Of a stretch of 8,589 nt of DNA, positions 2,705 through 8,527 are shown piece after piece. The first letter of the stretch is position 1; every line of letters starts with the position of its first letter. The notes under the pieces were generated by a model. It had not been told where the DNA came from. It searched no databases and saw nothing but the letters and a program-made list of their open reading frames with translations. Both the position numbers and the translations under genes were made by a program. The DNA comes from Calditrichota bacterium (GTDB lineage Bacteria; Calditrichota; Calditrichia; RBG-13-44-9; J042), in the NCBI GenBank assembly GCA_013150955.1, contig JAADJD010000035.1:1-8589 (forward strand), written 5' to 3'.

Positions 2705-3238
2705 TTAGACCACCCGTTGATTTTTCATCCGGTATCTGGCATAAAGATTCACTTTTGTGAATGGGCAAAAGTTTCCATCCAGAGAAATTTTTTGGCTGGA
2801 CACCGCATCCTCCCGGTGGATCAGATCCAATTCCTGCATCCGAACCGGAACAATGTAAATGGGTAAATTCATCGGGTAGCAGGTGAGGTAAAAGCGTCCA
2901 GGGGGCAACACCAATCGCACAGTGACGGTATCCACGCGCCCCGGAACGAACCGAATGGTTCGGGAAAAGTGTTTTAACAGCAGTAACTCTCTCTTGGCAT
3001 TCCACACGGAGAAATCCAGGCGGTATCGCAACTGTTTTCCATCTTCCAGAATACCCGGTAAGGCATTTTCCGGAAATGGCACCTGTACCATCAACGTCAC
3101 CTGCAGGGAATCCCCGACAGGTGATATCTTTACCGGTTGAATGCGAATCTGCGGATCGGGCTGTGCCAGCAACATCGACGTCCACACGACAATTCCGGCC
3201 AGTACTCCCCACCTCGGCCAGATGCTGGATCGGTTCAT
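2705..3238 (-). CDS. Secreted protein of unknown function, in the chaperone cluster
   Basis: The 177-residue product begins with a classic signal peptide: [10 protein letters not shown], then a hydrophobic stretch (11-24) ending LLA before QPDP, so cleavage is likely after Ala25. No cysteine is placed for lipid attachment. The mature part alternates hydrophobic and polar residues in the manner of a beta-sandwich ([33 protein letters not shown]) and has two cysteines, in YLTCYP and GNFCPF, that could pair. I recognise no family. The ATG at 3238 is chosen because GGGAGGTGG lies five bases upstream; an in-frame ATG eight codons earlier has no such site and would spoil the signal peptide. It sits between htrA and groES, reading the same way, which suggests an envelope-stress or secretion role, but that is inference from position. 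Confidence 0.85.
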
Positions 3239-3290
3239 GCAACCACCTCCCGTATTCCGCATCCATTGCCTTTCGAGCTGAGATCAAACA

Positions 3291-3321
3291 GGAGCCCGAA
3301 ATCCATTCCTTTTCGGGCTCC
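3291..3321 (-). terminator. Strong hairpin after htrA, without a full T tract
   Basis: GGAGCCCGAAA (3291-3301) and TTTCGGGCTCC (3311-3321) form a perfect 11-base-pair stem with a nine-base loop, starting eight bases after the htrA stop. On the minus strand it is followed by TGTTTGAT, a weak U-rich run. It could be a leaky terminator that lowers expression of the downstream unknown gene and groESL, or an RNA-processing or stabilising stem. Only 52 bases separate it from the next start codon, and I see no convincing promoter there. Confidence 0.6.
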
Positions 3322-3329
3322 TCTGCAAA

Positions 3330-4859
3330 CTATTCTTCGGGAATGGTAAAGGCGATAAACAGACGTTGCTCACCCCGCTGCACATACAGGGCGATGGGAT
3401 CTCCGGGTTTCAGCTCATCCACGATGCGCTCGAAGTCGCGGACGTTTTCCACCGGTTTTCGATTCACTTTCAGGATCACATCGCCCACATCCAGTCCACT
3501 GCGGGCTGCCGCGCTGCCGCGCCGGACGCGAACAACGACCACCCCTTTCACATCCTTGCTCAGTCCCAAACGGCTGCGCAGTTCCGGGGTGATGTTTTCC
3601 ACGCTAAATCCAAGCCGTTTGACGGCCTTTTTCTCGCGAGCAACGGGCTGTTCCTCTTCGGGCAATTCACCCAGCTTCACTTTCACTTTTTTCTTTTTGC
3701 CATCCCGCAGAATGGTAAGGGTGACCTCGGTACCGGGTTCGGTGGATGCCACCCGTGTGCTCAGGTCAAAACGGTTCTTGACTTTTTTGCCATTAAATTC
3801 CAGAATGATGTCTTCCGCTTTCAGCCCTGCTTTTTCGGCCGGACTGTCCTCCACCACCTGGCTGATGATGGCTCCTTCGGGTTTATCCAGGCCGTACACT
3901 TTGGCCATATCGGGGGTCACATCCCCAATATACACGCCCAGCCATCCGCGAACCACCCGGCCTTTCTCCAGGATATCTTCCATCACCTTCCGGGCCAGAT
4001 TCACCGGGATGGCAAATCCAATCCCCATGTACCCGCCGGATCGGGTGATGATGGCGGTGTTGATGCCGATGAGCTCGCCCTTGAGATTTACCAGCGGTCC
4101 CCCACTGTTTCCGGGATTGATGGCCGCATCGGTTTGAATGTAGTCCTGATACGTGGCCAGACCGGTGAAGCCACTGCGACCTTTCCCGCTGATGATGCCC
4201 GCCGTGACGGTGTGCTCCAGATTGGGATCCAGCGGCGACCCGATGGCCAGAACCCACTGGCCTACCCGGATATGATCCGAATCCCCAAATTTAATGGCCT
4301 TCAACCCGTCCACGTCAATTTTCAGCACTGCCAGATCGGTACGCTGGTCGCTGCCTTTGATCTCCGCTTTAAATTCCCGGCCATCAATCAATCGCACGTT
4401 GATGTCCTGCGCATCTTTGATCACATGAAAATTGGTGAGAATGATCCCGTCAGAACGGACAATCACACCGGAGCCCAGGCCTTCCCGGATGATATCCCCT
4501 TCCGGTTCGGGCATCTGGAAAAATCGCTTGAAGAAATCATCTCCGAAAAAATCATCGAACGGAAAGCCAAACGGCGTAACCCGCCGCCCTTTGACGACCG
4601 TTCGGGTAAAGATGGTAACCACGGAGGGATTCACCTGCTCGGCAACACTGGCAAAAGCGTTGCTGAGGGCGTCCAGTACTTCGGTGGAACCTTCAGGTGG
4701 TTCCGGTGATGTGGCCGGTGCCGGCACATCCGCCGGTGCCAGTGGCGTATCGGCATGACTCTGGTTGGTAATGTTCAATCCCGAAGCCAGAATCAATCCA
4801 ATGATAATCCCCAAACCAATCAGCAGCACGGCAAAACCGGTTAATTGTTTTCGATTCAT
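3330..4859 (-). CDS. degP: Membrane-anchored HtrA/DegP serine protease with two PDZ domains
   Basis: This 509-residue protein belongs to the HtrA family (S1C), which degrades or shelters misfolded proteins on the outer side of the cytoplasmic membrane. It has an N-terminal hydrophobic segment (about 8-27) that could be an anchor or an uncleaved signal, then a proline-rich linker (38-56). The trypsin-like domain carries the full triad: His145 in TNFHV, Asp175 in TDLAVLKI and Ser252 in GNSGGP. Two PDZ domains follow (about 305-395 and 415-506), as in DegP/DegQ rather than one-PDZ DegS. The F/D-rich segment at 97-114 lies where the regulatory LA loop of this family sits. AGGAGG eight bases before the ATG sets the start. 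It lies 149 bases after clpB with a hairpin between. DegP versus DegQ cannot be settled from sequence alone. Confidence 0.96.
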   Translation of the reverse strand: MNRKQLTGFAVLLIGLGIIIGLILASGLNITNQSHADTPLAPADVPAPATSPEPPEGSTEVLDALSNAFASVAEQVNPSVVTIFTRTVVKGRRVTPFGFPFDDFFGDDFFKRFFQMPEPEGDIIREGLGSGVIVRSDGIILTNFHVIKDAQDINVRLIDGREFKAEIKGSDQRTDLAVLKIDVDGLKAIKFGDSDHIRVGQWVLAIGSPLDPNLEHTVTAGIISGKGRSGFTGLATYQDYIQTDAAINPGNSGGPLVNLKGELIGINTAIITRSGGYMGIGFAIPVNLARKVMEDILEKGRVVRGWLGVYIGDVTPDMAKVYGLDKPEGAIISQVVEDSPAEKAGLKAEDIILEFNGKKVKNRFDLSTRVASTEPGTEVTLTILRDGKKKKVKVKLGELPEEEQPVAREKKAVKRLGFSVENITPELRSRLGLSKDVKGVVVVRVRRGSAAARSGLDVGDVILKVNRKPVENVRDFERIVDELKPGDPIALYVQRGEQRLFIAFTIPEE

Positions 4860-4958
4860 CGCACAATCCTCCTTTCTCCATCATTCGTATTGATGCTACG
4901 GTTGACCGCAACCCTCAGTTTCCACTCCCTGAAAATCGTTTCGCTTCCTGTATTGCAT

Positions 4959-4992
4959 ATCCTGCCCACCCCGGAACGGGAGCGGGCAGGAT
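4959..4992 (-). terminator. Hairpin between clpB and htrA, no T tract
   Basis: ATCCTGCCC (4959-4967) mirrors GGGCAGGAT (4984-4992) as a nine-base-pair stem, and the loop has a small extra CCC/GGG pairing. It starts 16 bases after the clpB stop. No run of T follows on the minus strand, so it is either a weak terminator or a 3'-end-stabilising stem that lets some transcription pass into htrA. The remaining 99 bases to the htrA start hold no promoter I can defend. Confidence 0.5.
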
Positions 4993-5008
4993 GCGTTCAA
5001 CAACGGTT

Positions 5009-7648
5009 TTACTCGGTTTCTTCCACCACTTCCGCTTTCTCGATGGGCTCGAAGACAATTTCCCCGTTTTGATAATCCACTTTGATGATCTGATTGCGGT
5101 GGAATTTGCCCGCCAGCAGATCGAAGGCCAGTTTGTCCACCACTTCTCGCTGAATGACCCGTTTCAACGGTCGGGCACCAAAGGCCGGATCGTAACCCAC
5201 TTCGGCCAGATGGTCTTTGGCAGCTTCGGTCAGTTCGATGTCCAGCCCCTGTTCCGCCAGCTGCTGCCGGATGCGTTCGACCTGCAGATCGACAATCCGT
5301 TTGATGTGCTCTTTGGTGAGGCTGTGGAAAACGATGATTTCATCCACCCGGTTTAAAAATTCCGGACGCAGCTGCTGCCGCAGCAATCCCAGTACCTCTT
5401 CCTGAATTTCCCGGAACAGTTCCTCGCGATTGTGTTCCGTCATCCGCATGGATTTTTCCAGAATCAACGGCGCACCGATGTTCGAGGTCATGATAATGAT
5501 GGTGTTTTTGAAATTCACCGTGCGCCCTTTGTTGTCCGTTAACCGCCCATCGTCCAGTACCTGCAACAGGATGTTGAACACCTCTGGATGTGCCTTTTCG
5601 ATTTCATCCAGTAGCACCACAGAATAAGGTTTGCGGCGTACGGCTTCGGTGAGCTGGCCGCCTTCTTCATAGCCCACATAACCCGGCGGTGCCCCGATCA
5701 AACGACTGACGGAATGCCGCTCCATGTATTCGGACATGTCGATGCGGATCATGGCGTTTTCGTCATCAAACAGGAATTCGGCCAGTGCACGGGCCAGTTC
5801 GGTTTTCCCAACCCCGGTTGGGCCAAGGAAGATGAACGATCCGATGGGACGGTTCTTATCCGCCAGACCCGCACGGGAGCGTCGGATGGCATTGGCCACC
5901 GCACGAATCGCTTCTTCCTGACCAATCACCCGCCGGGAGAGGCGCTCTTCGATCTTTAACAACTTCTCGCGCTCGCTTTCCAGCATTCGGGAAACCGGAA
6001 TGCCCGTCCAGCGACTGACAATTTCCGCAATGTCTTCTTCATCCACTTCTTCCTTCAGCATCTTTCGGTCTTTCTGGATTTCCTGCAGCTTCCGGGTCAG
6101 TTCTTCCACCTGTTTTTGCAATTCGGGGATGCGGCCGTATTTAATCTCGGCCACCCGGTTCAAATCGCCCATTCGCTCCGCCTTCTCCATTTCCACACGC
6201 AGCTGATCGATCTGGGCCTTGGTTTCCCGAATTTGTTGAATGGTTTGCTTTTCCAGCATCCAGTGGGCTCGCAATTTGTTGCGCTCTTCGCGCAAGTTGG
6301 CCAGCTCTTCCTCAATCTTCTTCAGCCGTTCCTTCGCCGCCGCATCTTTCTCTTTCTTCAGCGCCACCTGTTCAATTTCAAGCTGTTTGATGCGGCGCTC
6401 GATTTCGTCCAGCTCCTCGGGCATGGAATCAATCTCGATGCGCAGTCGCGAGGCCGCCTCATCGATTAAATCGATGGCCTTATCCGGTAAATACCGATCG
6501 GTGATGTAGCGATGCGACAGAGTGGCGGCGGCAATGATGGCTGCATCGGTAATTTTGACACCGTGGTGCACTTCATACTTCTCCTTCAATCCCCGAAGGA
6601 TGGAGATGGTGTCTTCCACGCTGGGCTCTTCCACCAGGATGGGCTGAAACCGCCGTTCCAGGGCCGGATCCTTTTCAATATGCTTGCGATACTCATCCAC
6701 GGTGGTTGCCCCAATGCAGCGCAGTTCACCCCGCGCCAGTGCCGGCTTCAGCATATTGGATGCATCCATGGCACCCTCCGCCGCACCGGCACCCACCAGG
6801 GTGTGAATTTCATCGATGAAAGTGATAATCTGCCCTTCCGATTCCTGAATTTCCTTCAGTACCGCCTTCAGGCGCTCTTCAAATTCGCCGCGGAATTTGG
6901 CACCGGCTACCAGCGCTCCCATATCCAGAGCCACAATCCGCTTGTCCTTTAGCGAATCGGGCACATCTCCATTGACGATGCGCTGGGCGATGCCTTCCAC
7001 AATTGCCGTTTTCCCGACACCCGGATCCCCGATTAAAACGGGATTATTTTTGGTGCGTCGGGAAAGCACCTGCAACACCCGGCGTATCTCCTCATCACGA
7101 CCGATGACCGGATCCAGCTTACCCTGACGCGCCAGCGCCGTTAAATCTCGCGTGTAGCGCTCCAGGGCCATGTATTTTCCTTCGGGATTCTGATCGGTAA
7201 CGCGCTGTTTGCCGCGCACTTCCTGCAGTGCTTTCAGGGTTAGATCCCGATCCACCCCAAAACCGGTCAGGATGCGATAGGCCTCTGTCCCTTTCACCTC
7301 CAGCATGGCCAGGAACAGGTGCTCTGTGGAGACGTATTCGTCTTTTAAATTTTTCGCCTCCTGCAAGGCCACGTTGATTAATTGATTCAGCTGGGGAGAT
7401 GCATACACCTGACCCGCAGCGCCATGCACTTTGGGGAATTTATTGATGGCGATGTCCAGCTGGGTCATGACATTGGCGGGATCCACCCCCATCTTTTTCA
7501 ACATGACCGGAACAATGCCCTGATCGTCTTCCAGAAGTGCTTTCAGCACGTGTTCCGGTTCCAGCTGTTGTTGATTGAGGCTAATGACCAGCTGTTGGGC
7601 GTTGGCCAGAGCCTCCTGTGCTTTTATGGTGAATTTATCCAGGTTCAT
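5009..7648 (-). CDS. clpB: ATP-dependent protein disaggregase ClpB
   Basis: This 879-residue Hsp100 ring ATPase extracts chains from aggregates, working with the DnaK system in the cytoplasm. The N-terminal Clp repeat domain covers about 1-145. The first AAA+ module has Walker A GDPGVGKT (207-214), Walker B with Asp279-Glu280, and pore loop KFRGEFE (251-257), with Phe where many ClpB proteins have Tyr. The charged coiled-coil middle domain spans roughly 400-530 and separates ClpB from ClpA/ClpC. The second module has GPTGVGKT (609-616), Walker B LLDE (679-682) and pore loop GYVGYEEGG (656-664). There is no ClpP-binding tripeptide insertion evident. The start at 7648 is chosen for AGGAGGT eight bases upstream; an in-frame ATG at 7693 lacks a ribosome site and adds 15 non-family residues. 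It is the first gene of the cluster. Confidence 0.98.
7169..7183 (-). promoter_or_regulatory. Possible internal translation start in clpB (Met160)
   Basis: Within clpB, GAAGGA (7183-7178) lies six bases before the ATG for Met160 (7171-7169), directly ahead of [10 protein letters not shown], the usual beginning of the first AAA+ module. Initiation here would give a 720-residue ClpB without its N domain. E. coli makes such a short form from a GTG at codon 149; the aligned valine here (Val150) is a GTT codon and cannot do so. Such sites also occur by chance. Confidence 0.3.
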
Positions 7649-7697
7649 CTGTTTCAACCTCCTTTCTTTCGATGGATGATGATTGCACCCCATTTAA

Positions 7698-7713
7698 TAC
7701 AATTTTTGTGCCA
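7698..7713 (-). promoter_or_regulatory. Sigma-54-like -24/-12 site upstream of clpB
   Basis: On the minus strand TGGCAC (7713-7708) is followed after five bases by TTGTA (7702-7698). The spacing is exactly that of the sigma-54 consensus TGGCACGNNNNTTGCW, with differences at only two fixed positions: A for G after TGGCAC, and T for the C of the -12 GC pair. Transcription would begin near 7687, about 39 bases before the clpB ATG. The changed -12 base weakens the case, and no activator gene or enhancer is visible. Confidence 0.35.
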
Positions 7714-7984: not shown

Positions 7985-8527
7985 ATGAGCACTTACCTAA
8001 TTGCAATTTTAATAGGTATTTTTTCAAGCTTAATCGCCTCTTTTACTTTCATATTTTTCTTAGCACGGTTACGACCACGAATAGAGATCTCCTCAAAAAT
8101 TGCCAAGAGAATTGGAGAAAATCAGAATCCCGAATACCGGATAAAAATTATTAATCGGACACCTCGTTCTATTATTAACATAAAAGCACAACTGCATTTA
8201 ATGGCCCCCGTAAGTACCCCGGGAGGCATTATTATGACTTCTAAAGAAATTAAATTAAAAAGGGACGAAATTATGGAAATTTCTCGCTTTAACAAGAAAG
8301 ATCCTTTAGCAGGCTATGCTTTTAGATTTGTAACTTTTGAAAATATTGATGAAATTTGGCAGGATGATACCCATTTTTTTCTTCGATTCCGTATCCACGC
8401 TACCGATTCCTTTTCAGGATTTAGTCGGGTTTTTGTCAAAGATTACCACAAGAAACGCAGCTCAATTAAAGAAGGCGAGTTCGAATTTGGTAATTCCTTA
8501 AACCCAGATTACGCATTAGAGAATTGA
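7985..8527 (+). CDS. Orphan protein with one membrane helix and a probable beta-rich cytoplasmic domain
   Basis: The 180-residue product has one strong N-terminal membrane helix (about 4-27) followed by Arg28, Arg30 and Arg32, which by the positive-inside rule puts the rest in the cytoplasm. Residues about 33-150 alternate hydrophobic and polar residues as in a beta-sandwich (YRIKIINRTPRSIINIKAQLH; HFFLRFRIHATDSFSG), and the C-terminus is charged and probably flexible. I do not recognise the family. The strand pattern, ending in a 'DDTHFFLRFRIHATDSFSG..RVFVKDY' stretch, faintly recalls the cytoplasmic domain of inward-rectifier potassium channels, but there is no pore or selectivity filter. 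The start ATG has GGAG 11 bases upstream. The gene runs at roughly 28-35% GC in the parts I sampled, against near 58% in clpB, so it was probably acquired separately. It diverges from clpB and has no visible partner in the window. Confidence 0.75.
   Translation: MSTYLIAILIGIFSSLIASFTFIFFLARLRPRIEISSKIAKRIGENQNPEYRIKIINRTPRSIINIKAQLHLMAPVSTPGGIIMTSKEIKLKRDEIMEISRFNKKDPLAGYAFRFVTFENIDEIWQDDTHFFLRFRIHATDSFSGFSRVFVKDYHKKRSSIKEGEFEFGNSLNPDYALEN

Follow-up and report, generated by a model that had tools for sequence, protein, structure and literature searches.

Gene X (positions 2705-3238, minus strand) encodes an exported protein of 177 amino acids with a predicted Ig-like fold, and lies between htrA and an additional groES-groEL pair in every genome in which it was found. 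The constant place of X among heat-shock genes suggests a role in envelope stress. We tentatively propose, as a possibility that falls somewhat short of probable, that X assists envelope quality control as an accessory partner, made together with the heat-shock block in which it resides.

Genomic context and distribution of gene X

The stretch of DNA analysed here (hereafter the window; 8,589 nucleotides) is the entire contig C19 of a Calditrichota bacterium genome of 4.07 Mb. Its minus strand carries, in this order, clpB (5009-7648), htrA (3330-4859), X, groES (2404-2688) and groEL (765-2381), groES and groEL each being the second copy in the genome. The likely start of clpB at 7648 was picked by comparison with genome G002 (see below), the longest open reading frame (ORF) starting at 7693. 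HtrA comprises an N-terminal hydrophobic anchor, a trypsin-like domain and two PDZ domains. The block is flanked on the plus strand by a gene for a DUF6804 protein (196-495; PF20619, E 1.9e-28) and a gene (7985-8527) whose uncharacterised product of 180 aa has a hydrophobic segment at its N-terminus.

X starts at 3238 and its stop codon ends at 2705, the 177 codons encoding a signal peptide, a body of ~110 residues and a tail. The signal peptide covers residues 1-25 (3164-3238, minus strand) and ends LLA/QPDP, with predicted cleavage after LLA. A hydrophobic stretch with alanine at the cleavage site is present in all four orthologues (LLA/Q, VRA/Q, VWA/R and ALA/G), in agreement with the signal peptide that the initial annotation had assigned to this protein.

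The family set comprised four genomes from three genera, namely the window genome (G000), a same-genus species (G001, locus L035), G002 (locus L120) and G003 (locus L121); the class set comprised 40 genomes. In all four family genomes, X is located between htrA and groES-groEL, and clpB precedes htrA, the G003 contig starting inside clpB. The outer flanks of the block vary: in G002 it is preceded by a response regulator gene and followed by ffh/rpsP, in G003 it is followed by a MiaB-like gene, and other ORFs are found in G000 and G001. X was absent from the remaining 36 class genomes by both single-sequence and profile searches, and no unlinked second copy was detected by profile search in any of the four family genomes. 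Outside the family, htrA was not found within ~1.5 kb of groES at any of the loci checked. Moreover, of 80 HtrA loci drawn from many phyla, only that of the same-genus genome (L035) showed X and the htrA-groES link. The position between htrA and groES noted initially is thus shared by every genome with X, each showing the htrA-groESL link, and counting the genomes in which X adjoins groES or htrA did not reveal widespread unlinked homologues, which had been named beforehand as the outcome that would speak against this association.

A different arrangement is seen in family f5 of the class, where htrA precedes dnaK, and several MAGs of Cloacimonadota and proteobacteria (L068, L101, L103, L106, L109, L112, L114, L061 and L081) have clpB a few kilobases or less from htrA. 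HtrA is therefore often found among heat-shock genes, and X is peculiar to one family.

X is a rapidly evolving coding sequence

The mature protein of the window shares 51, 27 and 29% identity with the other three orthologues; identity is 98, 77 and 76% for GroES and 88, 64 and 66% for HtrA. When mature X was compared with that of the same-genus species, 59, 69 and 45% of first, second and third codon positions, respectively, were identical. The dN/dS ratio for this pair is ~0.25 for the mature protein and ~0.35 for the whole protein, with synonymous sites near saturation. X is thus fast-evolving yet coding, under moderate purifying selection.

The high divergence and the variable C-terminal tails might be expected of a spurious or decaying frame without function, but we regard this as scarcely credible. 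The frame, the signal peptide and the sandwich core are intact in four species, the core of the G001 protein is modelled confidently (pLDDT ~90), and second codon positions are the best kept and third positions the least, a pattern that already contradicts such a reading. Orthologues at the same place in four genomes, together with this coding pattern of change, indicate that X is more than a chance ORF: X is a real gene.

The same data bear on a further explanation, according to which X would be an Ig-like protein exported to serve a separate function in the envelope, and would owe its position to inheritance of the whole block within a small family. This is quite possible, if a little doubtful: it accords with the restriction of X to four genomes of one family and with a divergence far faster than that of its neighbours in the block, but not with the fact that five genes stay together while their flanks differ, nor with the lack of an unlinked second copy in the four genomes.

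Intergenic regions of the block

The distance between X and groES is 16 bases in G000, 58 in G001, 122 in G003 and 189 in G002, and that between htrA and X is 91, 91, 121 and 89 bases, respectively. A hairpin follows the htrA stop codon in all four species and is devoid of a U-rich tail. In the window it is GC-rich with a stem of 12 pairs (3290-3322, minus strand). The stability of the htrA-X gap relative to shuffled sequences showed a modest excess in three species (z -1.8 for the window, -2.1 and -2.3); in G001 z was 0.0. In G002 (L120:4754-4889) and G003 (L121:1438-1575), clpB is followed by terminator-like hairpins with T-runs, and a strong hairpin is present after clpB in the window (4860-5008).

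The genes of the block are clustered, X being closest to groES. The 16-base spacing to groES, free of any hairpin, could be confirmed for the window genome, to which this spacing is particular. Given the hairpins after htrA in all four species and the varying X-groES gaps, the earlier placement of X inside a chaperonin operon holds only in part: what stands is that groES is the closest gene, on the same strand, with no hairpin in the 16-base gap. The hairpins that part X from htrA, and the wide groES gaps in two of the species, are also what would be expected if X had merely been inherited with the block.

Predicted structure of the mature protein

AlphaFold2 models were obtained for two sequences, X of the window and X of G001. 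Both display a seven-strand Ig-like sandwich (2816-3148, minus strand, in the window), with a core pLDDT of ~85 for the former and ~90 for the latter, so that the beta-sandwich body anticipated in the initial annotation is predicted by the two models alike. The C-terminal tail (2708-2815, minus strand) has a pLDDT below 50 from mature residue 119 in the window model, and each orthologue has a tail of different length and sequence. Invariant residues of the core lie around L36-P37, R69, G76 and D79, and the core also contains a P-x-x-x-P-x-Y-I motif (P98-I105). There is no recognisable enzyme motif in X.

Two cysteines had been highlighted in X; they are indeed present in the window protein (mature residues 96 and 133), but G001 keeps the first only and the two more distant orthologues are free of cysteine. 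They are therefore not a family feature, and the idea of a disulfide was ruled out on this ground.

The best VIA-align Z scores of the two models were 9.5 and 9.3, all to Ig-like domains and hardly exceeding what common folds would be expected to give. The best structural matches were Ig-like domains of family 2 glycoside hydrolases (2vjx, 6byc and 3fn9; Z 9.2-9.5), which sit inside enzymes and share 8-13% identity with X, so that only a common fold is concerned. A Foldseek search against the PDB and a viral library returned no match under E 0.001, and a sequence profile search of the PDB returned chance matches only. Because Ig-like folds are so common, these matches carry no information on function.

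The fold also bears on whether X might be a periplasmic inhibitor or adaptor acting on the protease or PDZ domains of HtrA, by analogy with the intracellular proteinase inhibitor BsuPI (PF12690, 3isy). X is predicted to be a single-domain Ig-like sandwich of a size similar to BsuPI, the model aligning with most of 3isy (Z 8.9, rmsd 2.7, 100 of 117 residues), and X always lies directly downstream of htrA. However, this score is tied with those of dozens of unrelated Ig-like domains, no match to the BsuPI family was found in X or in any of the 40 genomes, and X is exported whereas BsuPI is intracellular. The C-termini of the orthologues are not conserved either: they end RVV, LRQ, MLP and RKT, with nothing in common, and a PDZ-ligand C-terminus was ruled out. 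Such a direct regulator of HtrA is, in our opinion, distinctly improbable.

A probable relationship with GWxTD proteins

Neither Pfam nor NCBIfam, searched up to E 10, gave a credible family for X or its orthologues, one orthologue having a single chance NCBIfam match (E 0.05); its initial description as an unrecognised protein is thus upheld. When the X profile was searched against the 40 genomes, it retrieved the four X proteins and one other place, the N-terminal part of a GWxTD protein in G026 (L218:1393-2676), with E 1.8e-4 for that one genome; ~0.007 such hits are expected over 40 genomes. This GWxTD gene is directly downstream of a RimO-like gene. GWxTD proteins are present in all 40 genomes of the class, with four clear members in the window genome, one of which (L115:1414-2688) came next among GWxTD proteins when ORFs were scored with the X profile. 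GWxTD proteins were enriched at the top of the 998 ORFs scored in this way, these ORFs not being independent of each other.

We compared mature X with 30 GWxTD N-terminal domains by hhalign and obtained a score of 34.4 (probability 71%). In control comparisons, 200 column shuffles gave a mean of 10.6 (sd 1.9, maximum 17.3) and the reversed profile 13.6. An independent alignment gave a profile-profile value of 74.5%. The second sandwich of GWxTD proteins, a clear relative of the first (97%), scored 26.8 against X. CARDB, considered as an alternative Ig-like family, was rejected with a noise-level score of 14.2. It should be noted that the reverse search, with the profile of the GWxTD N-terminal domain, failed to list X in the genome that encodes it, even at E 10.

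X and the GWxTD N-terminal domain are alike in being exported, in their size of ~110 residues, in a similar predicted strand order and in a PG(K/R/D)(Y/F) turn. X differs from GWxTD proteins in having a single domain within its 177 aa; the second sandwich is missing, and so is the GWxTD domain (TIGR04514/PF20094), of which Pfam and NCBIfam searches up to E 10 found no trace in X or its orthologues. Of the best-kept residues of the N-terminal domain (T of ETNSR, G of PG and D after the last strand), X keeps the G only; it lacks the ETNSR-like and D motifs and has an LPxYI-like motif of its own. X is accordingly, by its sequence, not itself a GWxTD protein. The profile comparisons suggest that its sandwich is a weak relative of the GWxTD N-terminal domain, and a common origin by loss of the rest of the protein appears likely but unproven.

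An additional chaperonin and a sigma-54-type promoter

The window GroEL branches separately from the GroEL proteins of the class, whereas the copy on contig C38 (L122:3492-5114) groups with them. The chaperonin operon linked to X is therefore an extra groESL, which phylogenetic placement indicates was gained or kept by the family that bears X. The C-terminus of the window GroEL reads PPDFDEY, without the usual GGM tail.

A sigma-54-type promoter, TGGCACAAAAATTGTA, is located upstream of clpB (7698-7713, minus strand). The motif TGGCAC-N5-TTGTA lies directly upstream of clpB in both G000 and G001 (L035:1149-1164), and TGGCAC-N5-TTGTT is found upstream of clpB in G002 (L120:2035-2050). The strict sigma-54 pattern occurs seven times in the whole window genome, compared with none for the reversed control, and two of the six other strict sites precede hsp20 genes. 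Several f5 genomes have a sigma-54-type site ~65 bases before dnaK (the loci listed for hsp20 and dnaK sites are L143, L144, L146, L150, L154, L230 and L232). In G002, an NtrC-type sigma-54 response regulator gene adjoins clpB upstream (L120:219-1553), and its product is a candidate activator of the heat-shock block. No HrcA/CIRCE element was found in the window.

Sigma-54 heat-shock genes have been predicted in Bacteroidota and Planctomycetota (PMC12316311). These predictions, together with the conserved site at clpB and the sites before hsp20 and dnaK, support, without proving, a response to heat of the clpB-htrA-X-groESL block, X included. The heat-shock genes of the class may form a sigma-54 regulon.

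A possible role of X in envelope quality control

If X does serve envelope quality control as an accessory partner, it would be made upon switch-on of the clpB-htrA-X-groESL block, probably from the sigma-54 promoter before clpB, and its signal peptide would route it through the Sec machinery. The mature protein, predicted to consist of one Ig-like beta-sandwich and a loose tail, would have derived from the N-terminal sandwich of GWxTD proteins after loss of the remainder, and would have become fixed in the family ancestor between htrA and the extra groESL. Given that no enzyme motif was recognised, X most likely acts by binding; in the periplasm, it might hold envelope clients or touch the membrane-anchored HtrA.

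The maintenance of the block in four of four genomes while its outer flanks differ counts in favour of this accessory role, as do the conserved sigma-54 site at clpB and the two of six other sites that precede hsp20 genes. Since the four genomes are related, the conserved neighbourhood can also be mere inheritance, which counts against it. So do the hairpins after clpB and htrA, the variable gap to groES, and the finding that the orthologues conserve neither a C-terminus suited to a PDZ role nor a disulfide suited to a redox role. The initial annotation had suggested that X may be an adaptor, substrate or sensor for HtrA; nothing specific to such a function was found, the orthologues sharing no PDZ-ligand end and not keeping the cysteines, and the link that emerged being to GWxTD proteins. 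We know of no GWxTD protein that is a partner of HtrA and, to our knowledge, no function has been assigned to GWxTD proteins.

At present, X is a family-restricted accessory gene whose role we infer. It is unlikely, although conceivable, that X is a periplasmic HtrA partner that arose by detachment of a GWxTD-type Ig-like domain and is produced alongside the cytoplasmic chaperones through sigma-54 upon heat shock; if true, one regulon would couple cytoplasmic and envelope protein quality control. The block is also an example of sigma-54 promoters at heat-shock genes in a lineage beyond the well-studied groups. Moreover, a stand-alone relative of the GWxTD N-terminal domain beside htrA and groESL would be the first functional lead for GWxTD proteins, and X would offer a small target for experiment.
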